From assembly GCF_002019735.1 (NCBI RefSeq), contig NZ_KV917378.1, positions 1,173,869 through 1,237,868 on the forward strand: a stretch of 64,000 nucleotides of DNA, read 5' to 3'. The notes beneath the pieces are model-generated. The model saw nothing but the letters and a program-made list of their open reading frames with translations. It was not told where the DNA came from and ran no database searches. Every line of letters starts with the position of its first letter. Position 1 is the first letter of the stretch. This stretch comes from Salipaludibacillus agaradhaerens. Its GTDB lineage: Bacteria; Bacillota; Bacilli; Bacillales; Salisediminibacteriaceae. This document shows positions 53,430 through 64,000 of this stretch, in pieces. The position numbers and the translations under genes were made by a program.

Positions 53430-54657
53430 ATGACTACGATAGATAAACAACCAGAAAATCAGCTCCGTCCCTCATTTTCTATGGCTGGTACATCGTATTT
53501 ATAGGTGTAATGAGCCTATTTTTTCCATATCTAATCAAACTTACTCTAACGCGATCTTTATTGATTTTTATATTTTGAACTTCAATTGGGATCCCTCTCT
53601 CGTTTCCGAGCTTTATTCAGCAGGCTGGATTCCTGCTGTTTCTTCTAGGAAATTCAATAGACAGATTTGGAGAAAGGCGCATGTCACTTACCGTCAGTGT
53701 TCTTCTCGTTTGTAGTTTGTATTTGGAATAGCTTCGTTATAAGCCCATGGATACTCTTCATTGGCTTTTTCCTAATTAGGTTGCTAGGACAAGGATCTAT
53801 GACTCTAGTCCCAATCCCCTAATGGTTTATTGAAAAACGTGGGCGTGCTTTCAGCTTAATAATGATCGGTGGCTTTCTCCGTTTCTACACTATTCTCTCC
53901 CTTTAATTCTTAGTTAATTAATGAATACAGATAGGAAAATGCGTAGAGAATTTTAAGAGCATTGATTTTAGTTATCTTTGCTCCAGCCGTTTACTTTATG
54001 ATGGGAAATAAACCCGAAGATATGGGGGGACTGCTGGATAACAAATATAGTAAGCACACTAAAACAGCAACTAGTTCGTGATGGCGTGAAGAGACATGTC
54101 GCGGACACTTAAAGAGGCCATGGCAACGCTACAATTTTGGCTAATTCTTCTTTGCATCGATATTCCTTCAATGATAAATAAAGGTTTAACATTTCATCTA
54201 GTATCTATTCTTAACCTCAGAGGGGTGTCTCCAGCAGGCGCCGCTTTTGTATTAAGCCTAATGGCTATTGCCGTTTTCCCAATCACCATGCAGGATTTGC
54301 AATGGAATGTATGAAAGTAAATCAGATGTTTGCTTTTGTTTTTGTAGGACAAATTGGGTTTATTCTTTTGCTTTATTTTACCCATTTTTAAATGTGGGGC
54401 CTGGCCTCCGATGTTATTGGGGACTGATCGGGGGGAATTGAAAGGATTTCCATCTCCGTGATCCTGCCAGATTATTTCGGGAGAAAACATATCGGAAGTA
54501 TTAAAGGATTTGCCACCGCCGTCACTGTTATGGCTTCAGCATTCGATCCCCTTGCTTCGGGCTTGTTTTTGATCTTTTGGATGGTTATCAGGAAATACTT
54601 TTAGCTATTTTCATCTTCCCAGTATTAGGAGTGATCGCCTGTGTATTAAGCCCTTAA
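53430..54657 (+). pseudogene. Decayed MFS transporter (oxalate/formate antiporter-like)
   Basis: Fragments of one protein appear in order in changing frames: FYGWYIVFIGVMSLFF, TYSNAIFIDFYI with NWDPSLVSELYSAG, LIRLLGQGSMTLVPIP then an in-frame stop, WFIEKRGRAFSLIMIGGF, MMGNKPEDMGGLLD, TLKEAMATLQFWLILL and GLTFHLVSILNLRG, and finally GLFFDLLDGYQEILL. This is the order of an OFA-type major facilitator with about 12 TM. At least five frame changes or stops destroy it. An apparently intact start (ATG 53430 with GAAAGGA) shifts frame after about 16 codons. Confidence 0.85.
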
Positions 54658-54755
54658 CCCCTAAAAGATAACGTGAACTCGTTAAAAAAGGAAAAAATCC
54701 GCTAAACTTGTTATAATAAATTTAATAAAGATTTTTAGAAAGGGGGGCGTTTGAT

Positions 54756-54941
54756 ATGGATATTTTCACTGTGCCAGACCCTTCTGACAGTGGTATGGGA
54801 TACGCTTATATTGCAATGATAATCGTATTTGCTGCCGCTTCATTTACTGTTTATAAATTAAAACAATCAACTAAAAAAACTGCTCGGAAAAACACGCAAA
54901 AAGCTTATGATATGTATGGTGCTAATGAGAAAAAAAAGTAA
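54756..54941 (+). CDS. Small single-TM protein with basic tail
   Basis: 61 aa: one TM segment (MGYAYIAMIIVFAAASFTVY, residues 14-33) followed by a strongly basic C-terminus (KLKQSTKKTARKNTQKAYDM, then NEKKK). GAAAGGGGGG ribosome binding site before ATG 54756. N-out/C-in orientation is expected. Similar small proteins exist in Bacillaceae; no function assigned. Confidence 0.65.
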   Translation: MDIFTVPDPSDSGMGYAYIAMIIVFAAASFTVYKLKQSTKKTARKNTQKAYDMYGANEKKK

Positions 54942-55096
54942 TGTTCCCTCTATGATTTGTTAGAAAAACATAGAAAGGACAGTTCTCCACTCTTTTCATT
55001 GTTCACACTTTTTGGCTAGCCCAAGCATACACTAAATTGACTATTAACGGTTGATCCTTCTTCACATAATATAGATGTTATTTTTAAGGAGAGTAT

Positions 55097-55936
55097 ATGG
55101 GCATGATAAAAGAACCATTTCAAATGCAAACAGATGCAATAACTTTTTTGCAAGACTGGAACAACCTCTCACCGAATATATTAGCTGGATTTACAACAAA
55201 ACGGGGTGGTACAAGCAGCGGCGCTTTCACCTCAAATAATCTTGGTCTGCACGTTAATGATACGAATCTTAATGTAAGAGAAAATCGTAGACTCCTAGCT
55301 GATTTACTCCAATTTCCATTAGAAAACTGGGCATGTGCTGAGCAAGTACACGAAGATCATATTGTCAAAATATCAAAAGACCTTACAGGATACGGGACAC
55401 TCAATTATCAGGACAGTATTAAAGGAACAGACGGTTTTTACACGACAGAAACGAATACCCTCCTTGCCCTTTGCTATGCAGATTGCGTCCCAATTTATTA
55501 TATGGCTCCTGAACATCATACAATCGGCATCGCTCATGCTGGCTGGAAAGGATCGGTTAAAAACATCGCTGGGAAGATGGTGGAACTTTGGAAAATTAAC
55601 GAATCTATCCCTCCCACTGAAATTTACGCCGCTATAGGGCCGTCAATCGGCCCTTGTTGCTATATGGTAGATGACAGAGTCATTAAGGAAGTTAATGACA
55701 TACTCTCTTCTAGCCAAATTTCGAATTCACCTTATGAAAAAGTAAGTCATGATCAATACAGTCTTGATTTAAAAAAACTAAATTTGTTGTTACTACTGAA
55801 TGCTGGTATTGATAGAGCTAACATTCTCGTCTCACAGTACTGTACCAGTTGTGAAAAGAGTTTATTTTTTTCCCATCGAAGGGATAACGGAAAAACTGGT
55901 AGAATGCTTAGTTTCATCGGTTTTAAAAATACCTGA
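55097..55936 (+). CDS. pgeF: PgeF/YfiH-type multicopper oxidase-fold protein
   Basis: 279 aa of the DUF152 family (bacterial YfiH/YlmD, human LACC1). Conserved metal-site motifs: GLHVNDTN, AEQVHED, GTDGFYT, LCYADCVPI and IAHAGWKGSVKNI, then GPSIGPCCYMV and DLKKLNLLLLLNAGI, CTSCEKSLFFSHRRD. Members act as polyphenol oxidase, purine nucleosidase or as peptidoglycan-editing factor. AAGGAG precedes ATG 55097 (55103 is also possible). Confidence 0.92.
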   Translation: MGMIKEPFQMQTDAITFLQDWNNLSPNILAGFTTKRGGTSSGAFTSNNLGLHVNDTNLNVRENRRLLADLLQFPLENWACAEQVHEDHIVKISKDLTGYGTLNYQDSIKGTDGFYTTETNTLLALCYADCVPIYYMAPEHHTIGIAHAGWKGSVKNIAGKMVELWKINESIPPTEIYAAIGPSIGPCCYMVDDRVIKEVNDILSSSQISNSPYEKVSHDQYSLDLKKLNLLLLLNAGIDRANILVSQYCTSCEKSLFFSHRRDNGKTGRMLSFIGFKNT

Positions 55937-56147
55937 ATTCGCGATATAGCATATTAATATGTTATCCAGCAGCTTCCTTTCCATGAACGAACCGTAAAGC
56001 ATACACGTAACAAAAGCGAGACATTCGTTTCTTTTAGGTAAGGTGCGATAGATACATTTTTCATCAAAAATTCAGAAAACAAATAATATCGCATTGAATT
56101 TCCTGGGAAGTCATGGTAAAGTAAACGTATAATTTCATAGACAAAAT

Positions 56148-56234
56148 CCACTAGGGGTGCCTTTTTGGGCTGAGATAGGTAGTAATCCTAATCCCTTTGA
56201 ACCTGATCTAGTTCATACTAGCGTAGGAAAGTGG
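56148..56234 (+). ncRNA. TPP riboswitch (THI box)
   Basis: The aptamer starts CCACTAGGGGTGCC, contains CTGAGAT and the strongly conserved CCTTTGAACCTGATCTAGTT, and closes with AGCGTAGGAAAGTGG pairing with the start. Binds thiamine pyrophosphate. A terminator 50 bases further on indicates transcriptional attenuation of tenA when thiamine is plentiful. Confidence 0.95.
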
Positions 56235-56283
56235 CGTAGCGATAACTCAGTTTATTTTAGCGAGACTTGGATAGTTATTGATC

Positions 56284-56318
56284 ACGTCATTCCTTTTGAA
56301 GGAATGACGTTTTGTTTT
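56284..56318 (+). terminator. Riboswitch expression-platform terminator
   Basis: ACGTCATTCCTT / AAGGAATGACGT perfect 12-bp stem, 3-base loop, TTTGTTTT tail, between the TPP aptamer and tenA. Confidence 0.9.
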
Positions 56319-56472
56319 ACACCTCGTCCGTTAATAATATTGGTGTCTTAAAATACAATATTTTGTGACGCCTAGTATTCTATTCGTCTATTTCACCTCT
56401 CCTAATCTTCATTAAGCCTAGCTGAATGACCTTCTCTAGTTGGATTTTGTCTCATTTTAAAGGAGGCAAATA

Positions 56473-57138
56473 ATGAGTTTTACAACCACACTTCGGAAAG
56501 AAACGAATCACTTATTTGATGCTTGCTATAATCACCCTTTCGTACAAGGGATCGGCAAGGGAGAATTGTCAAAGGGCCAGCTTATTCACTACGTTAAACA
56601 AGATTTCGAGTATTTGAACGCCATGATACAAACGAGAGCATATACGATGGCTAAGTGCACGGATAGAGAAAAAATGGCTTTACTAAATGAAGGCATTTCA
56701 TTCATTTTAGCCGATGAAACCCACCCACATCATAATTTTTGTCATGTAGCAGGTGTAGACTATGAGGCGCTCCAAGGCGAAAATCTTGCACCAAATGCCC
56801 ACCATTATAGTCGTTACATGCTACAAGTAGCCCAAAGCGGCACCTTAGGAGAAGCGCTGGCTGTGGCACTCCCTTGTCCATGGATCTACTTGGACATCGG
56901 AGAACGACTTATGAACGACGTAAAACCTGATGAAAGTCACCCTTTCTATCCTTGGATCTCTTTCTACGGCAATCTAGAAATGCCAAGCATTACTAAAACA
57001 TTGAGATGGCTAGATGAGCTTGCTGAAGATGCTGGTGAAGCTGAATGTGAAAGAATGCGCCAGCATTTTATAAACGGCTGCAAAATGGAATATATGTTCT
57101 TTGACATGGCTTATACAGAACAAGCTTGGCCTGTTTAA
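56473..57138 (+). CDS. tenA: Aminopyrimidine aminohydrolase (thiaminase II) TenA
   Basis: 221 aa helical-bundle enzyme that hydrolyses aminomethyl-pyrimidine from degraded thiamine for salvage. Conserved DFEYLNAM, EGISFILADE, the catalytic Cys in VALPCPWIYLDIGERL (about 136), and the C-terminal YMFFDMAYTEQ with the catalytic Glu. Preceded by a TPP riboswitch; the other thi genes that normally follow (tenI-thiO-thiS-thiG) are absent. AAAGGAGG ribosome binding site. Confidence 0.94.
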   Translation: MSFTTTLRKETNHLFDACYNHPFVQGIGKGELSKGQLIHYVKQDFEYLNAMIQTRAYTMAKCTDREKMALLNEGISFILADETHPHHNFCHVAGVDYEALQGENLAPNAHHYSRYMLQVAQSGTLGEALAVALPCPWIYLDIGERLMNDVKPDESHPFYPWISFYGNLEMPSITKTLRWLDELAEDAGEAECERMRQHFINGCKMEYMFFDMAYTEQAWPV

Positions 57139-57187
57139 ATCATACAAAAAATTCCGGGGCGTGCTTTTTCTCCCCGGAACTCTTCTC

Positions 57188-58459
57188 TCATGTTACGTAT
57201 CGTTTATTAATTTTTTTACCATCACAACAAAACACGATAGCTCTATCAGCTAAAACTGTTTCTAAATGCACAGGTCTTCCCCAAAGTTGATAAATATAAG
57301 GTAGCGTTTTTTCCAAGTATGTCGTATCCAACTCTACTCCTTCATACTCATGAGATAAATAAAGCTCACCCGCCTTAAGATAGTCACCATTTACGACATT
57401 AATAAAGGGAAACCCTCCATTAACTCTGCTTGAAATTAACTGGTCACGTATATGCTCCCATTCTTTATCAATGATTTTGTACTCTTTACCTTCTTTTTGA
57501 AATAAATACATATCTTCTTCGGCTGCCAATTCTTTCGTTAAATAATTGCGGATAAAGGAAATATCTGATTCAATTTCTCTTACTTCAAAAATCTTTTCCC
57601 GCCCACTTCCTCGTTTAATTCTTTGTTTTTCAATCATATGTTTCGTTGGGTTATCATAACGCTTTTCAATATCCTCAAAAATCTTCAATCCAAGGTAGTA
57701 AGGATTAATCTGTGTGGTTGACGGCTGTACCACGCCAGCATTTAACTTTGCAAACTCCACTGCCTCCTCAGACGTCAATGCCATTTCTCTTAAAATCCTT
57801 TGATGCCAATAAGTTGCCCATCCTTCATTCATAATTTTCGTCTCTAATTGTGGCCAAAAATAGAGCATCTCTTCACGCATCATGGTTAAAATATCTCGCT
57901 GCCAATCTTCAAGCTCCTTACTGTAATGTTCAATAAATAATAAAAGATCTTTTTCTCGTTCTGGTGGAAACTGTTTTTTCTTTTTAGGTTTCTTAACCGT
58001 TTGAACATCCTTTTTAGCTTTATCTAACTGCCATAAATCATCATAAGGAGTCTCTACTCCCTTATCATTCTCATTTTCTAATTCTACCCAAACATCTTCC
58101 ATCGTCCAATTTAATTTTGAACGCTGGATACTCGGATCAATATGCTCCTGTATAGCCAATACCGCATCAAGAAAAACTTCGACTTCTTTTTTACCATGCA
58201 CCATTTCGTAATGATGAATTCGTTCCGCAGTGGCAGTCATACTTTCAACCATATCTCGCCTCGTATGAGCAAAGCGAGCATTGTTTTTAAAAAAATCGCA
58301 ATGTGCCAACACATGGGCAATGATCAACTTATTCTGAATAAGTGAGTTCGTATCAAGTAAAAAAGCGTAGCAAGGATCTGAATTGATCACTAATTCATAT
58401 ATTTTACTCAGCCCTAAATCATATTGCAATTTCATTTTATGGAATTGTTTAGCAAAGAA
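57188..58459 (-). pseudogene. spoVR: spoVR, 3' part, cut by prophage insertion
   Basis: SpoVR is needed for spore cortex formation. Here 415 codons remain from a Met at 58435 and carry the family's conserved blocks: [63 protein letters not shown] and [17 protein letters not shown]. Full-length proteins are about 465 aa. Upstream of the Met the frame still reads FFAKQFHK, matching the family's WTFGKxFH, then meets TGA at 58460-58462. No ribosome binding site precedes the Met, so this is not a natural start. The missing 5' part (about 55-65 codons) should lie across the prophage, outside the window. Confidence 0.85.
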
Positions 58460-58462
58460 TCA
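58436..58462. other. Probable attachment-site junction in spoVR
   Basis: SpoVR homology breaks between about 58451 (Ala in place of the expected Gly, FxKQFH) and the TGA at 58460-58462. The recombination core must lie at or just inside this point. The matching copy at the other prophage end is outside the window, so the core cannot be delimited. Confidence 0.6.
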
Positions 58463-58547
58463 TACTAATGAAACCACAAACTTGTACGGGAACTTATGTT
58501 CTTGTCTTTGTCGCTCAATCTGAGTAAAATAATGATGAGGTGATAAC

Positions 58548-58754
58548 ATGACAGACGCAGAACGTAAAGTGTACCGTATTGTATTTAATCACAAGCATAT
58601 AAAAGATCAGAACACCAAATATAGCAATTTACTTAAATTCACAGGTAAAACGCCCAGAGACTTAGACGAGGTACTTGATGCCCTTGTGGAAAAGAAACTC
58701 ATCTGGTGGGATAAGGATAAGACAAAAGATGTGGCGTTGAGGAAAATTGAATGA
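58548..58754 (+). CDS. Small winged-helix-like phage protein next to the att site
   Basis: 68 aa, charged, with a predicted winged-helix pattern (AERKVYRIVFNHKHIKD, YSNLLKFTGKTPRDLDEVLDALVEKKLIWW). AGGTGA just before the ATG. It is the first gene inside the prophage, less than 100 bases from the att junction. A small basic DNA-binding protein there could be a recombination directionality factor, but I do not recognise the family. Confidence 0.6.
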   Translation: MTDAERKVYRIVFNHKHIKDQNTKYSNLLKFTGKTPRDLDEVLDALVEKKLIWWDKDKTKDVALRKIE

Positions 58755-58780
58755 GCTAGCCGAGAGGCTGGCTTTTTTAT
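58755..58780 (+). terminator. Terminator after the first prophage gene
   Basis: GCTAGCC / GGCTGGC stem (one G-T pair) with loop GAGA and a T-run. Confidence 0.85.
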
Positions 58781-58809
58781 TTTTCAAAAAACTTTTCAAA
58801 TTTACTTTA

Positions 58810-58839
58810 CATATAATTAATTGCATGTTATGTTATATA
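58810..58839 (+). promoter_or_regulatory. Prophage promoter-like motif, copy 1
   Basis: CATATAATTAATTGCATGTT followed by ATGTTATATA, 30 bases ahead of the 58869 gene. Nearly the same sequence recurs at 59986-60013 before the 60076 gene, suggesting a shared promoter or operator. TTGCAT...TATATA could serve as -35/-10 boxes at a short spacing. Confidence 0.5.
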
Positions 58840-58868
58840 TAACAGCAAATTAAACGGAGGCGGTTAAA

Positions 58869-59264
58869 GTGAAAAGAATTATGAATATTGCATGGAGACT
58901 TGCTAATAAAGGCGCTAAAAAATTCGGCGGTAGCTCAAAAGATTATATGTCAGAGTCACTTAAAATTGCTTGGTACATTGCAGGTAAAAATGTAAAGCGT
59001 AAATCTAAAAAAGTTAAAATTATCACATCATCGGGTAGCCGTAAACATAAATCTTGGGTTGCTAAAATCAACGGTACTCACCCTACTTATAACTTCTCTC
59101 GTCAGTTTGTAGAGGCATATGACGAGAATTGGACAGAAAAACATTTTGAATTAGTAGCAGGTATTTATGATGTTTGCGATGGCGGAGAGCGTTATTTTAT
59201 TAGAGTGTCTGGTGGCAAAGTAAGCAAAATTAGCATCGACGCTGTTAAAGGCGCTGTCGCTTAA
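58869..59264 (+). CDS. Phage protein of unknown function
   Basis: 131 aa, basic. The N-terminal helical segment (IMNIAWRLANKGAKKFGG ... MSESLKIAWYIAGKN) resembles a short helical motif I recall from many Firmicutes phage and ICE proteins; the C-terminal half is beta-rich (KSWVAKINGTHPTYNFSRQF). ACGGAGGCGG ribosome binding site. Its stop overlaps the next ATG (TAATG), so the two are coupled. Confidence 0.65.
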   Translation: MKRIMNIAWRLANKGAKKFGGSSKDYMSESLKIAWYIAGKNVKRKSKKVKIITSSGSRKHKSWVAKINGTHPTYNFSRQFVEAYDENWTEKHFELVAGIYDVCDGGERYFIRVSGGKVSKISIDAVKGAVA

Positions 59265-59779
59265 TGGATAACCCAAATAAGAGAGTCCCCAAAAACGCTC
59301 TCGATCTAAAAAATAAAAAGTTTGGCAAGCTAACAGCATTAGAACGCTGTGGCAGAACTAAAAACGGGAGTGCTCTTTGGCATTGTAAGTGCGAGTGTGG
59401 CAATACCTTTAAAGCCAACGCTACCTCTTTAAGGCGCGGAGAAACAATTTCATGCGGTTGCGCCAGACAATCGCAAGCAGAAAACGCCAGAAATAAACTA
59501 TGGATAAATAAATCTATAGAGGGTATACACGTCCCATTACTCACTAAAAAAGTGCGCTCTGATAGTGAAACAGGGCATAAAGGTGTATCTAAGAGGATTA
59601 GACGTGGAAAGGTGCGTTATGAAGCTTATATATCTGTTAATGGTAAACGAAAGTATTTAGGTAGCTCTACAGATATAAACGATGCTATCAAACTGCGTAA
59701 AGATGCGGAGTTAAAATATTACGACCCGTATATTAAAAAATTGGAGGGAAAAGAAAATGGACAAGATGACAACAGATGA
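59264..59779 (+). CDS. AP2-domain DNA-binding phage protein
   Basis: 171 aa. N-terminal part has four Cys in CKCECG and CGC after KFGKLTALERCG, a pattern of zinc-ribbon-like phage endonuclease tails; the C-terminal part (about 105-155) is an AP2 DNA-binding domain: GHKGVSKRIRRGKVRYEAYI, KYLGSSTDINDAIKLRKDAE. These modules usually accompany HNH homing endonucleases, but no HNH motif is visible here, so it may be a DNA-binding remnant or a regulator. Overlaps both neighbours. Confidence 0.8.
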   Translation: MDNPNKRVPKNALDLKNKKFGKLTALERCGRTKNGSALWHCKCECGNTFKANATSLRRGETISCGCARQSQAENARNKLWINKSIEGIHVPLLTKKVRSDSETGHKGVSKRIRRGKVRYEAYISVNGKRKYLGSSTDINDAIKLRKDAELKYYDPYIKKLEGKENGQDDNR

Positions 59780-59975
59780 AATAAAAAAATGGATTGAAGA
59801 AAATTTGTGCTTGCAAGATGAAGCGCGAAAAATCACAGATCAATCAGTGACAGGCTTTAACCAGTCTGTAGCAACACGAAAAGTTGTCCCTTTTGTTGAG
59901 TTTGGCGAAACACGAAAAACAAGGCTTTATTTAAAGTCTGACCTTGAGCATTATAGAGCGAATAAAAGAAAATAA
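59757..59975 (+). CDS. Small excisionase-like DNA-binding phage protein
   Basis: 72 aa. ARKITDQSVTGFNQSVATRK then VVPFVEFGETRKTRLYLKSDLEHY looks like a winged-helix protein of the excisionase/MerR-like kind ('...LYLKSDLExY' closing strand and helix). Overlaps the AP2 gene by 23 bases. GGAGGG at 59743-59748 lies upstream of ATG 59757. A candidate regulator or excision factor of the prophage. Confidence 0.6.
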   Translation: MDKMTTDEIKKWIEENLCLQDEARKITDQSVTGFNQSVATRKVVPFVEFGETRKTRLYLKSDLEHYRANKRK

Positions 59976-59985
59976 AAATAAATTG

Positions 59986-60013
59986 CATATAATTATTTAC
60001 ATGTTATTATATA
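59986..60013 (+). promoter_or_regulatory. Prophage promoter-like motif, copy 2
   Basis: CATATAATTATTTACATGTT followed by ATTATATA, matching copy 1 at 58810 with one gap and two or three substitutions; it lies about 60 bases ahead of the 60076 gene. Confidence 0.5.
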
Positions 60014-60075
60014 CGTGTTACAATGTAATTAACAACAAGAGATAACGTAATAAAAAAACTAAAGGAGTGATTGAA

Positions 60076-60285
60076 ATGAGAGAATGGAAACGAGAAGGTT
60101 ATGAGGTTGTAGAAAAGGAATTTGATGGAGATTTACACGAGTTTGATGTTATCGCAGGTGGAGAGATAATTGCTACGATCACGCCTAATGACATCGAGGA
60201 CATGGAAGAAATAATAAAAGACCTAGACAACGGAGAAGATGTGAACGGTTGGGAAGACGGCATGGGTAATACAATCAGCATATAA
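60076..60285 (+). CDS. Small acidic phage protein
   Basis: 69 aa, strongly acidic (Glu/Asp near 35 percent), no Cys; REWKREGYEVVEKEF, LDNGEDVNGWEDG. AAAGGAGTG lies 7 bases before ATG 60076. Acidic small proteins of phages are sometimes DNA mimics or anti-defence factors, but nothing here proves that. Confidence 0.6.
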   Translation: MREWKREGYEVVEKEFDGDLHEFDVIAGGEIIATITPNDIEDMEEIIKDLDNGEDVNGWEDGMGNTISI

Positions 60286-60336
60286 AAATAACGCCACCCG
60301 TCGGGCGTATACGGCGGGATCGAAAGGGGAATGGAA

Positions 60337-60759
60337 ATGTACATTGAACACAAAAATTATGAAACATTAGGACACGAGCCAAACTTAGTTAATTACTTCT
60401 TGGATAAATTCTTGTACGGGACCCGAAGTTATGACGAATTCGGGGAGGGGTATTCTATAGAAGAAACCTTCGAACAAGTAATTGCCGAAGGCGCATTTAG
60501 AGAAGATGTTTCATCAGAATTAATCAAAGTAAATAAAAGAAAACTATTTTACAACTTAATAGCAAAGAACTTTAATTATTGGCTAGGAAGTAAGCCGCAA
60601 CCGATAGAACTAGACCCTGACACAAAGGAATATGTCAGAGAACAAATAGAGGATGCGAGCAAAAAAGAATATTTGACGTACGCAGATTTAGACAATGCCA
60701 ACTTGGCAATTAATGAGAGTGTTGTTATCCCTGTACTAAATCAAGGTTACGAGATATAA
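60337..60759 (+). CDS. Phage protein of unknown function
   Basis: 140 aa, soluble, acidic; YIEHKNYETLGHEPNLVNYF, LDNANLAINESVVIPVLNQG. AAAGGGGA precedes two in-frame ATGs (60331 and 60337); the second has normal spacing. The leader (AAAGGGGAATGGAAATG) is repeated before the next gene, and both are preceded by a GC-rich hairpin. Not recognised. Confidence 0.6.
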   Translation: MYIEHKNYETLGHEPNLVNYFLDKFLYGTRSYDEFGEGYSIEETFEQVIAEGAFREDVSSELIKVNKRKLFYNLIAKNFNYWLGSKPQPIELDPDTKEYVREQIEDASKKEYLTYADLDNANLAINESVVIPVLNQGYEI

Positions 60760-60809
60760 GACAAAACCGCCGCAGTCACGCAAAGGTGACGGGCAGAAGG
60801 GGAATGGAA

Positions 60810-61268
60810 ATGGAAAACTTTGAAATCAAAGGATTTGACTCAGTTTCAGATATTATAGAGATGTTCGGAGAAAGCTTCAACTTCCCGAAGTTGATCGGAT
60901 TGTCCTATCTGGTCTTCCCGTCAGCCCCAACCTCAAACGTAAATGTAACTTTATACGATGACCAAGACGGTCCATCAGAGTCTAGGGTAACTCTAATAGT
61001 TAATAGAGTTAGATGTCACCCAAATGGGGGGGCTGATCACGTAGGCATGTTACGCTTTATGTGGACTACTGGCAGTGGACATGTCGTCCACATAGACGGA
61101 GATTGGCGAGAAGAAGACTATTTCTACTCGTTTGAAAAGGGCGAAGAGCCTACGTTCACGATTTGGCTTGGGGAAGATGAAAGCGAGAGGTTTTACCCTA
61201 GAGTTAAAGAATTGATACAGGAGGTCTCGGCATCCAACGAAAACACAGACAAAACCCCCACTCAATGA
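60810..61268 (+). CDS. Phage protein of unknown function
   Basis: 152 aa, acidic, beta-rich: LIGLSYLVFPSAP, VTLYDDQDGPSESRVTLIV, VGMLRFMWTTGSGHVVHIDG. No family recognised. AAGGGGA at 60798-60804 supports ATG 60810 rather than 60804. Last gene of the plus-strand set, before a shared terminator. Confidence 0.6.
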   Translation: MENFEIKGFDSVSDIIEMFGESFNFPKLIGLSYLVFPSAPTSNVNVTLYDDQDGPSESRVTLIVNRVRCHPNGGADHVGMLRFMWTTGSGHVVHIDGDWREEDYFYSFEKGEEPTFTIWLGEDESERFYPRVKELIQEVSASNENTDKTPTQ

Positions 61269-61368
61269 GCAGGGGCCAGTCTAAATACTAGTAAAAGCAT
61301 TTCAATCCACGCGCCCTCTAGGAGCGCGACCATGTCTAAAAGATAGCACGTATTTAATAAAAAAGTCA

Positions 61369-61399
61369 AGAGCTCCACCAAGTGTGAGGGCTCTTTTTC
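61369..61399. terminator. Terminator between convergent phage modules
   Basis: AGAGCTCC and the segment GAGGGCTCT form a stem with a T-run after it on the plus strand and TTGACTTTTTT on the minus strand, stopping both the plus-strand set and the lysis module. Confidence 0.7.
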
Positions 61400-61401
61400 T
61401 A

Positions 61402-62409
61402 TCACTTAAACAACATCTGAAACGTCTGAGGGCCTGCAATCCCATCAACTTGTAAATTATTTTGTCGTTGGAAAGTACGGACGGCGCTTCTTGTTTTGGA
61501 TCCAAAGATCCCGTCTATCGCTCCTAGGCTCGTTCCTTTACAATGTAGGATAGCTTGAAGAATCCATGTGATGTTTCCTCTTGCCCCTTGCCGGACTGTC
61601 ACACATGCTCTACGTGTTTTAGGCCCAAAAATACCGTCAACTGTAAGTCCACGGTTAAACTGTCTATTAAGTTCTGTTTGAAGTCCTTTGACTAGCGCCC
61701 CTTTTGTTTGAGGCCCAAACAAGTTATCGACCGATATACTCAATCTATATCGGCTATTAAGCGTCCTCTGGATAGTGGCGATCGTGCCTGATGCTTTGTT
61801 TGTTGATCTGTTTGAGTTGTTAGGTTTGGATGTTTTAGGTTTACTTGGTTTACTAGGAGCGCTAGAACTGCCCCCAGACAAATTAAATATTTTCGCGATA
61901 CCGTTAGCGTGACCCTGTGCGATTTTATCCAAAAACGCACTATCTTTCAGCTTGTTAGCGTCGCTTGAATTGTCGATGAATCCATTCTCAGTCAAGATAG
62001 CTGGCATGTTAGTTTGTCTTAGTACGGCGAAGTTAGCTCGTTTTTTCCCTCGGTTAAACCATTCTGTGATCTTGACTATTTCTGTATTCATCGCGTCTTG
62101 ATTATCCTTCGTGGCGTCAGATACATTGCCGTTAAAGATATAACACTCATATCCTTCGCCACCGCCAGCGTTAATGTGAACGGAAATAAAATAATCGGCG
62201 CCCCACTCGTTGGCCATTCTAGCACGTTCTGATAACGATAAAAACCTATCATCTGTACGACTGAGAAGAACTTCCACACCGTCCAATCGTTCTAATATTT
62301 CAGCCAGTCTTTTAGCTATTTTTAATACTAGTTCTTTTTCTTGTAGCCCATTTCCTACAGCTCCCGGATCGGAGCCGCCATGCCCTGGATCAATAAAAAT
62401 CTTAGTCAT
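61402..62409 (-). CDS. Endolysin: N-acetylmuramoyl-L-alanine amidase with peptidoglycan-binding domains
   Basis: 335 aa. Amidase_3 domain (1-175) with zinc ligands in FIDPGHGGSDPGA (His 10), the Glu in LQEKELVLKIA, His in FISVHINAG and catalytic Glu in ILTENGFIDN. A Lys/Ser/Pro/Asn-rich linker (180-205) leads to C-terminal PG_binding_1 repeats ('VDGIFGPKTRRA', 'IDGIFGSKTRSA', 'VDGIAGPQT'). Cleaves the amide between muramic acid and the stem peptide for lysis. Overlaps the holin stop by one base (TAATG). Confidence 0.93.
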   Translation of the reverse strand: MTKIFIDPGHGGSDPGAVGNGLQEKELVLKIAKRLAEILERLDGVEVLLSRTDDRFLSLSERARMANEWGADYFISVHINAGGGEGYECYIFNGNVSDATKDNQDAMNTEIVKITEWFNRGKKRANFAVLRQTNMPAILTENGFIDNSSDANKLKDSAFLDKIAQGHANGIAKIFNLSGGSSSAPSKPSKPKTSKPNNSNRSTNKASGTIATIQRTLNSRYRLSISVDNLFGPQTKGALVKGLQTELNRQFNRGLTVDGIFGPKTRRACVTVRQGARGNITWILQAILHCKGTSLGAIDGIFGSKTRSAVRTFQRQNNLQVDGIAGPQTFQMLFK

Positions 62410-62876
62410 TATACCTCATCCTTTTCAACTTTGATTTTGACTTGCTTATCTTGATTGATCGTAAACTCTTCCTGCACTTCTTCGCCTATTGATTGCTTTT
62501 CTTTAATCACGTGCAGCTTGTCTGCTATGCCTGGTGGCACTAAAACCCCCATCTCACTCATGTTTTCAACGATCGATAATCCTTCGCTCGCCATATAAAA
62601 AAGAACGGTGGCATAAGTAACAGCCCCGTTTAATCCTAAAATCTGATCTATGACATTTGCGACAATGATCACACCAAAGATTAATAGCTTTCGAGCGTAA
62701 CCAAAGAGAGACTTACGGCTCCATAAATTTTGATTTTTGATGGCCTTACTTACCCCCGTGACAATATCAACCGCCATCAATAACATAAGTAAATCTAAAA
62801 ACTTTACTTCCCCGAATAAATACAACCTTGCAACTTCTAAATGTTCCAAATCAATTCCTCCTATCAATGTTTTCAT
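62409..62876 (-). CDS. Phage holin (toxin secretion/lysis family)
   Basis: 155 aa: four hydrophobic segments (about 25-42, 63-81, 88-102 and less clear) with the family signature LMLLMAVDIVTGVSKAIKNQ and GYARKLLIFGVIIVANVID, then a charged C-terminus (EEVQEEFTINQDKQVKIKVE). It makes the membrane lesion that lets the downstream endolysin through. AAAAGGAG before the ATG. Confidence 0.9.
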   Translation of the reverse strand: MKTLIGGIDLEHLEVARLYLFGEVKFLDLLMLLMAVDIVTGVSKAIKNQNLWSRKSLFGYARKLLIFGVIIVANVIDQILGLNGAVTYATVLFYMASEGLSIVENMSEMGVLVPPGIADKLHVIKEKQSIGEEVQEEFTINQDKQVKIKVEKDEV

Positions 62877-62939
62877 CTCCTTTTTTAGTTAGAGTACGAT
62901 CCCCCTTTTTCTCTCTGTGGGCATAAAAAATAACCCTAC

Positions 62940-63161
62940 CTACTCGGCAGCGTCTTCCTCTTGTAACGACTCAATTAACATTTCTTTAACCTTTACCATG
63001 AGCTTGTCAATCGGCTCATTTCCTGCATATTCTTCTGGTGTCATCTCAATTCTTGTATTTGAGTCCACACGACCATTAAAACCTCTAAAGTTAAATCTTA
63101 CGTCAACGCTTGATATTTGACCGTCTCTAAACCGTGTATTAATGCTAGTAATTTGGATCAT
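62940..63161 (-). CDS. Small phage late protein
   Basis: 73 aa: MIQITSINTRFRDGQISSVD, VRFNFRGFNGRVDSN, EEYAGNEPIDKLMVKVKEMLIES. Proteins of this kind lie between tail-fibre and lysis genes in Bacillus phages; function is unknown. GGGAGTGG upstream. Its ATG overlaps the stop of the next gene upstream (ATGA). Confidence 0.75.
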   Translation of the reverse strand: MIQITSINTRFRDGQISSVDVRFNFRGFNGRVDSNTRIEMTPEEYAGNEPIDKLMVKVKEMLIESLQEEDAAE

Positions 63162-63298
63162 TCCTCTCCACTCCCCTTCGCTGAGCTCAATCTCTCAGTA
63201 AGTTGTTTATTTTGTACTCGCAAGATGGCATTTTCTTTTTCCAGTTTTGCTATCTTTAAAGATAGCTCATCAATCACTTGATTTACATCAATGTCCAA
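63158..63298 (-). CDS. Small coiled-coil phage peptide
   Basis: 46 aa starting with TTG: NQVIDELSLKIAKLEKENAI then LRVQNKQLTERL is a clear heptad coiled coil. GGAGGTGATAA precedes the TTG at 63298. It overlaps both neighbouring genes (11 bases with the tail-fibre gene and 4 with the 62940 gene), so translation is coupled. It may be a small tail-associated accessory protein. Confidence 0.65.
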   Translation of the reverse strand: MDIDVNQVIDELSLKIAKLEKENAILRVQNKQLTERLSSAKGSGEE

Positions 63299-64000
63299 TA
63301 TTATCACCTCCATATACTGCTATTTCTAAGTTTGCAACTTTACGCTCAAGCTCTATTATTTGATCTTGTTGTCGTTTGACGATTCCTAACAAATAAACAC
63401 CGATCCTGTCATATTGCACGCCGTCCGGCTCTGGAGTCTCTAGTTTAACGGACTCGCCGTCCTCTGTTAATTTTGTAGTCTTATAGTGTACAAGACGAGG
63501 CTCTATCTCGTGCACTTCTTCGGCTATCAAGCCCGCATATGACCAGTCAAAATCATGACATTCCGGCGTTTCTTTTGGACGATACCAGACCGGGCGCAAT
63601 TGTAGCACTTTATCGCAAATGTCTGGGTCTAAGTCCTCAATATTTTTTTTATATTTACGTGATGAGGTAGATCGTGCTAGTGTACCATTGCTGTTAATTT
63701 GCACGTTAGGGCTTGATGCTGTTGTATTGGTGTAAGCGTTTGGACATTGGATATTACCTAATGAGGTAACAATGAGATCGTTTCTAAACGATTCCCCGTT
63801 TGCATGCGATCGGATGTGGAAAGGGATACCAGCTGACCGATTGCCGTAAAAAGTCCAATTATCATTATTTTGATAACCGATTTTATGGCCATTAGCAAAT
63901 GTTATACCGTTATCACTATTACCGTAGATGCCAAGTCCGTCGACCTCAATCCCACCCCTTATCCGTAGGATATCCACTCCGGCATCAATACGATTGGCAT
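63288..64000 (-). CDS. Tail fibre / tail spike C-terminal part with S74 chaperone domain (partial)
   Basis: The frame is open to the window edge, so the N-terminus is missing. The visible ~237 residues end in an intramolecular chaperone of peptidase family S74: SSRKYKKNIEDL holds the conserved Ser and Lys of self-cleavage, then LRPVWYRP, WSYAGLIAEEVHE, GVQYDRIGVYLLGIVKRQ and a terminal Leu-zipper (IIELERKVANLE). The domain drives trimerisation and is then cut off. Host-receptor recognition is expected in the upstream part. Confidence 0.9.
   Translation of the reverse strand, partial: ANRIDAGVDILRIRGGIEVDGLGIYGNSDNGITFANGHKIGYQNNDNWTFYGNRSAGIPFHIRSHANGESFRNDLIVTSLGNIQCPNAYTNTTASSPNVQINSNGTLARSTSSRKYKKNIEDLDPDICDKVLQLRPVWYRPKETPECHDFDWSYAGLIAEEVHEIEPRLVHYKTTKLTEDGESVKLETPEPDGVQYDRIGVYLLGIVKRQQDQIIELERKVANLEIAVYGGDNIGH

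Follow-up and report, generated by a model that had tools for sequence, protein, structure and literature searches.

The sporulation gene spoVR of Salipaludibacillus agaradhaerens is split by a prophage, one end of which lies in the window analysed here, a 64,000-nucleotide stretch of contig NZ_KV917378.1 (G000:C1:1173869-1237868; positions preceded by C1 refer to the contig, all others to the window). The genome consists of this single contig of 4,319,439 bases and is 99.97% complete. Judging from the two junctions and the genes beside them, the prophage has almost certainly been integrated site-specifically by its own large serine recombinase (LSR), and its excision would rebuild spoVR. The best overall explanation, which we hold with moderate confidence, is an LSR prophage within spoVR that is excised in the mother cell.

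The split gene and its two junctions

The 3' part of spoVR, delimited with Pfam and an alignment with seven congeners, occupies 57188..58447 on the minus strand and comprises codons 58-476 and the stop codon (419 codons after the crossover core). Its longest ATG-started frame (57188-58435, minus strand, 415 codons) matches the Pfam families SpoVR, with 412 bits (profile positions 64-405), and SpoVR_C. No ribosome-binding site was seen ahead of its first ATG, and on the phage side of the AAA core the frame runs into a TGA four codons upstream. Searching the whole genome with the SpoVR profile gave two places, this one and a 5' part at C1:1273767-1273937 (minus strand, profile positions 4-61); therefore, there is no spare spoVR copy. 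The 5' part belongs to an open reading frame (ORF) of 71 amino acids (aa), preceded by AAGGAGGT and located outside the window (G000:C1:1273731-1273946, minus strand), whose first 57 codons are spoVR and whose last 14 are phage sequence. It is found 41.46 kb to the right of the 3' part, on the same strand, and beyond it there are genes read by eye as ilvE, ilvB, and ilvN.

By comparison with intact congeners, the break was placed at GGG-AAA-CAA (Gly-Lys-Gln, codons 56-58). The junction reads GGGAAAACAAAAC on the 5' side and GCTAAACAATTCC on the 3' side, and the stretch common to both in the frame-keeping register is AAA. Comparison of both junctions and the congeners locates this core at 58448..58450 (C1:1232316-1232318, minus strand) beside the 3' part and at C1:1273776-1273778, outside the window, beside the 5' part, the distance between the two cores being 41,460 bp. 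The rejoined spoVR is in frame, 57 + 419 codons yielding a gene of 476 codons with G-K-Q at the join, the same length as in the closest congener, G007. This congener represents the empty site: in BLAST, both host flanks are collinear with the G007 locus, whose positions 6480-5169 and 5172-452 match at 92% with a 4-base overlap at the break. The left attachment-site (attL) region, taken as the core and 40 bases on either side (58408..58490, no strand assigned), has a phage-side arm that constitutes one half of a partly palindromic phage attachment site (attP). The attP assembled from the inner prophage ends is symmetrical at 15 of 25 positions about the first AA of the core, a value of at least 15 being reached by 6 of 20,000 random prophage centres; the bacterial attachment site (attB), at 7 of 25, lacks this symmetry. 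The second AA register of the core was also tried as the centre and rejected (attP symmetry 3/25).

The initial annotation of the window had described a spoVR 3' part of 415 codons in frame, a TGA upstream of the break, a first Met without a ribosome-binding site, and phage genes starting at once. All of these are seen, the first phage ORF (68 aa) beginning 98 bp from the core. It had further proposed that a spoVR 5' fragment on the minus strand, a direct repeat of the junction sequence, and a recombinase gene would be found toward the far end of the prophage, and that joining the two parts would restore the reading frame. The fragment, of 57 codons, the frame, and the gene, which encodes a 474-aa serine integrase and ends 22 bp from the junction, were found as proposed; the repeat is confined to the common 3-bp AAA core, no exact word of 12 or more being common to both junction regions. 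A 3-bp core is ordinary for large serine recombinases. The 5' fragment, the restored frame, and the adjacent serine integrase thus support an excisable prophage interrupting spoVR.

The integrase, its relatives, and other split genes

The LSR gene (C1:1272329-1273753, plus strand, outside the window; assigned with Pfam) encodes Resolvase (140 bits), Recombinase (51 bits), and zinc-ribbon (31 bits) domains, all above the Pfam cut-offs, and shows sub-cut-off resemblances to the Ccr and XisF recombinases of NCBIfam. These domains, together with a 2-bp core (AA) inside a partly symmetrical attP, are those expected of a phage large serine integrase. The LSR gene is the last of a lysogeny-type cluster formed by a helix-turn-helix repressor-like gene, a 289-aa gene, an IrrE-like peptidase gene, a 58-aa ORF, and the LSR itself, and it is the one LSR seen in the prophage ORF list, a mechanical list of 67 ORFs of at least 50 aa, not every one of which was annotated. 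The 58-aa ORF has a ribosome-binding site, overlaps the start of the LSR gene, and has no PHROGs or Pfam match. It replaces an earlier 53-aa reading of the same ORF, for which no relatives were found among phage records at E 0.1.

Used alone as a query against the genome contigs, the LSR found no relative, and a two-sequence profile found eight loci, of which one from Salibacterium and two from Alicyclobacillus are 44-59% identical and the other five 25-28%. Viral contigs gave one partial match at 50%, and 12 of 397 genomes sampled from the order, the source genome included, contain a match at E 1e-60 or better. By far the closest relative found, with 59% identity, is that of Salibacterium halotolerans S7 (G215), whose gene runs toward a truncated spoVFB located behind spoVFA (names by eye). 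A spoVFB profile detected the 3' part of this gene on the same contig, followed by genes read by eye as asd and dapG. When joined at a GT core, the two parts of spoVFB (dipicolinate synthase B) give GSHCTLEEVEAIPYMRDL, in frame, the cores being about 46.2 kb apart (loci L015, L027, L035, L075-L077). The G215 attP shows symmetry about GT at 21 of 25 positions, which none of 20,000 random centres reached, and its arms share with those of the spoVR element, by eye, the motif ACTTCATA.T.ATGAA. The two prophages are alike in the LSR and its arrangement beside the 5' part, in the in-frame join, and in the common attP motif, and differ in the gene occupied, the core, the length, and most of their ORFs: 9/67 ORFs of the spoVR prophage were matched at E 1e-4, the weaker matches including repressor, peptidase, HNH, and endolysin genes, and the G215 prophage has an ORF read by eye as tail sheath.

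In a tree of 16 recombinases, the LSRs of spoVR and G215 are found together (96/96) and are joined next by the two Alicyclobacillus LSRs (99/97), while the clades of the remaining recombinases follow their neighbour genes. The neighbour of one LSR clade is a transporter gene, identified with Pfam at L016 and by eye at L022. In four genomes, LSRs adjoin truncated ComGA-type ATPase genes, that is, phages in a competence gene; these were assigned by NCBIfam ComGA at L019, L023 (just below the cut-off), and L025 and by Pfam T2SSE at L021. The loci L017, L018, and L024 look like comFA by eye, which neither Pfam nor NCBIfam confirms.

A second break site in spoVR was found when 15 genomes were re-examined, 14 of them with unusual SpoVR rows in the table of the 397 order genomes, plus G016. 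In 12 of these, from seven families, the gene is broken at NEGWA, near profile position 271 (G016, G062, G103, G183, G184, G188, G207, G260, G275, G338, G342, and G411; loci L038-L048, L052, and L054-L064). As this selection passed over genomes in which a strong best match was accompanied by others, and those whose matches were very weak, 12 of 397 is a lower bound. The sequence AACGAAGGCTGGGC is found exactly on both sides of the break in 10 of the 11 genomes with both parts, G342 having two mismatches on the 5' side; in G275 the 5' part alone was seen. Three of the NEGWA elements were read, those of G016 and G183 with three serine-recombinase-like genes each and that of G188 with one. One recombinase occurs in all three; its versions share 56-67% identity with one another and about 30% with the LSR of the spoVR prophage. 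No phage genes were recognised in the three elements by eye. In G016 (G016:C1:168000-203500; L071, L072), a complete second spoVR (186589-188049) and another spoVR C-terminal fragment (193972-194274) lie between the NEGWA-broken parts, next to three serine-recombinase-like genes. This island seems to carry its own spoVR copy.

A tentative wider reading, to which we give somewhat less than even credence, is that the modules of one LSR lineage have become specialised for sporulation genes of the mother cell and pass between phages that otherwise have no relation, such as the BCJA1c-like siphovirus in spoVR and the spoVFB prophage of Salibacterium. Insertions would then recur in spoVR, by the phage LSR at codon 57 and by distantly related serine recombinases at the NEGWA site, and the spore programme of the host would depend in each case on phage excision.

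Phage genes and neighbouring host genes

The 68-aa ORF adjoining the junction (58548..58754, plus strand) resembles phrog_3502, of unknown function (E 3.5e-7), has no relative among phage records at E 0.1, and is followed by a terminator-like hairpin (58753..58774, plus strand). Further in, also on the plus strand, there are a Phage_Gp111-family gene (58869..59264; Pfam, 84 bits), an HNH endonuclease-like gene (59264..59779; PHROGs), and a 72-aa excisionase-like gene (59757..59975), which matches the excisionase phrog_4691 (E 2e-5) and has no Pfam or NCBIfam match. The minus strand carries an endolysin gene (61402..62409) and a holin gene (62409..62876), both assigned with PHROGs, and the last part of a gene for a minor tail protein of 898 aa (63288..64000; PHROGs and ORF list), with which the structural genes start in the window and which runs beyond it. 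In the prophage as a whole, PHROGs identified small and large terminase subunits, portal, minor head, major head, major tail, distal tail, and minor tail proteins. The prophage is siphovirus-like and complete-looking, a term used here for its possession of the usual virion and lysis genes and not implying infectivity.

Of 176 records, only that of Bacillus phage BCJA1c (Jarrellvirus) matches the portal above 60%, with 71% identity. Sixteen of the 67 ORFs match this phage (tblastn, E 1e-5), and nine of these sixteen, from the portal to the tail, align along most of their length with 61-81% identity; among the likenesses are the minor head protein (73%) and most of the genes for head-tail joining and the tail. 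No BCJA1c match was obtained in this search for the ORFs of the major head, scaffold, and large terminase. The two phages also differ in their integrases, the BCJA1c frame being read by eye as a tyrosine recombinase, in contrast to the LSR of the spoVR prophage. At the DNA level, window positions 58500-64000 matched 22 phage records, each covering 6% of the query or less among the 20 listed. On the other side of spoVR, the window contains host genes (54000-57140), and a TenA-like gene (name by eye; 56473-57138, plus strand) is found just past the spoVR 3' end both in this genome and in G007.

Timing of excision and comparison with known elements

Two sites precede the 68-aa gene. The LexA-like box GAACTTATGTTC (58490..58501, plus strand) is the sole match to GAACNNNNGTTC in the window, and 0.0013 matches would be expected in any given 110 bp, the location not having been chosen beforehand. 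It is followed by a sigma-A-type promoter-like site, TTGTCT-17-TAAAAT (58502..58530, plus strand; 9 of 12 matches). The 3 kb that were scanned contain 11 sites of this kind, against a mean of 8.0 (standard deviation 2.5) after shuffling. Together, the box and the promoter-like site weakly suggest an SOS-responsive unit. The candidate directionality factors, chosen by resemblance and position, are the excisionase-like 72-aa gene, located 1.2 kb further in than the 68-aa gene, the junction-side 68-aa gene itself, and the 58-aa ORF overlapping the LSR start. Within the genus, seven of eight genomes keep TCATCATTT and CATAA.TT ahead of spoVR, G004 being the exception for both, and we take this conserved sequence to resemble a SigE promoter. 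When the regions upstream of 12 phage starts were scanned with SigE and SigK consensus sequences, 1 of 24 tests reached p 0.03, which is chance level. As the SigE-like region of spoVR itself, its own promoter region, scores only p 0.155 with these weak consensus sequences, the scan cannot settle regulation.

In the mechanism that we propose, a temperate siphovirus-like prophage has been placed by its own LSR between codons 57 and 58 of the only spoVR gene, and no full SpoVR can be made while it remains integrated. If the two junctions recombined at the AAA core, the prophage would leave as a circle of 41.46 kb, and spoVR would be rebuilt with no base gained or lost. By analogy with skin, SPbeta, vfbin, vrin, and gin, a phage-encoded directionality factor would trigger excision in the sporulating mother cell, so that spoVR would be whole when its own mother-cell-type promoter fires and the spore would keep the prophage; excision may also be triggered by DNA damage, via the LexA-like box. 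That excision is timed to the sporulating mother cell is probable on this analogy. We count in its favour that the nearest LSR found splits spoVFB, also a mother-cell gene, in frame. The prophage also shares with elements of the skin, SPbeta, vfbin, and vrin type a split mother-cell gene, a removal that restores the frame, and a recombinase of its own beside the junction.

Several observations weigh against this timing. The insertion is found in one of the eight genomes of the genus, the other seven having one whole spoVR each, and it may therefore be recent. Loss of the gene is tolerated, as 11/35 family genomes and 18/397 order genomes have no spoVR match, and in G344 (L051) it has been cut by an internal deletion to about the first 57 and last 90 codons and is decayed. 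No sporulation-type promoter stood out at the LSR or the candidate directionality genes in the scan with the weak consensus sequences. The attP motif-to-core spacing differs by 3 bp, by eye, between the spoVR and G215 elements, the more distant LSRs are often found in competence or other genes, and the LexA-like box favours plain SOS induction. The initial annotation had read the split as an excisable prophage that may be regulated in sporulation; its excisable prophage stands, but the promoter scans, at chance level, did not bear out the sporulation control, and the LexA-like box is the one regulatory lead.

An ordinary SOS-inducible temperate phage, for which the conserved spoVR stretch is merely attB, would be excised upon DNA damage or at random, and its lysogens would sporulate without SpoVR or with a rebuilt minority. 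This explanation is possible, though we consider it rather unlikely. It agrees with the LexA-like box and promoter-like site directly ahead of the junction-side gene, with virion genes close to those of BCJA1c, whose record is a phage genome, with the related LSRs in ComGA-type and transporter genes, and with the absence of spoVR in some relatives. However, chance would give 0.83 such boxes per window, the position of this one had not been foreseen, and the nearest LSR is also in a mother-cell gene. Moreover, in SPbeta, SprB sets the excision timing via both sporulation and mitomycin C (PMC4191935); as both triggers coexist there, SOS control does not exclude sporulation control.

Another possibility is a dead gene, in which the prophage is locked in and spoVR is heading to decay. 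The halves of the gene are well preserved, with ratios of non-synonymous to synonymous substitution rates (dN/dS) against G007 of 0.029 for the 5' part and 0.045 for the 3' part, and these low values exclude long neutral decay and are compatible with a recent insertion. The initial annotation had taken the preservation as a sign of ongoing selection. The halves are indeed preserved, but the argument is weak, since G007 changes alike: with G006 as the outgroup, 38 synonymous and 9 non-synonymous changes fall on this lineage versus 39 and 11 on that of G007. A recent insertion gives the same counts, and preservation was thus set aside as proof of selection. A dead gene would fit preserved halves if the insertion were recent, regulated excision being itself an inference, but the intact LSR frame and junctions, the exact restoration of the frame, and the usual virion and lysis genes make it improbable. 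Nothing was found to speak for a misassembly, in which the spoVR parts were never separated in the chromosome, and its probability is negligible given the near-complete single-contig genome, one frame-exact core at both junctions, and host flanks collinear with G007.

A mother-cell-excised prophage in spoVR would have several counterparts among described intervening elements. Excision during sporulation is reported for skin, SPbeta, and gin, and vfbin and vrin are so described (PMC4191935, PMC6957869, PMC5595907). The spoVR gene is expressed in the mother cell (PMC4191935). A published precedent is vrin, which interrupts spoVR of Geobacillus thermoglucosidasius C56-YS93 and is described as a regulated rearrangement (Abe et al. 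2013, via PMC4191935), vfbin lying in spoVFB of B. weihenstephanensis (PMC4191935); PMC6957869 instead assigns the split spoVR to B. weihenstephanensis, at odds with PMC4191935. Like vrin, the prophage described here is an element in spoVR. It differs in its host and in its usual virion and lysis genes, whereas vrin is described as particle-defective; both vfbin and vrin are nevertheless still excised (PMC4191935). Several such elements are described in these sources as decayed phages, and how they begin is therefore hard to see. The spoVR prophage, with its virion and lysis genes, its kinship to a sequenced phage, and an LSR relative in another mother-cell gene, could show the first step, a working phage hidden in a gene needed only in a doomed cell, and it offers a compact system of two junctions, one integrase, and three candidate directionality factors.

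The gin element in gerE of Bacillus cereus ATCC10987 is likewise a serine-recombinase element within a mother-cell gene. It has three recombinases and no phage genes, whereas the spoVR prophage has one recombinase and phage genes throughout; the three NEGWA-site elements that were read resemble gin in their gin-like serine recombinases and in that no phage genes were recognised in them by eye. No report of the spoVR prophage or of the NEGWA-site spoVR elements was found in the open-access literature searched. In structure, the spoVR prophage fits a known phenomenon, and it is new in its host and in the full virion gene set inside spoVR; its integration site within the gene is perhaps also new. 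With SPbeta in spsM of Bacillus subtilis it shares the prophage nature, a large serine integrase at one junction, a frame restored by excision, and a small gene at the other junction, SprB in SPbeta and the 68-aa ORF here. The gene and the phage are different, and excision and the function of SprB are demonstrated for SPbeta, while for the spoVR prophage we infer their equivalents.

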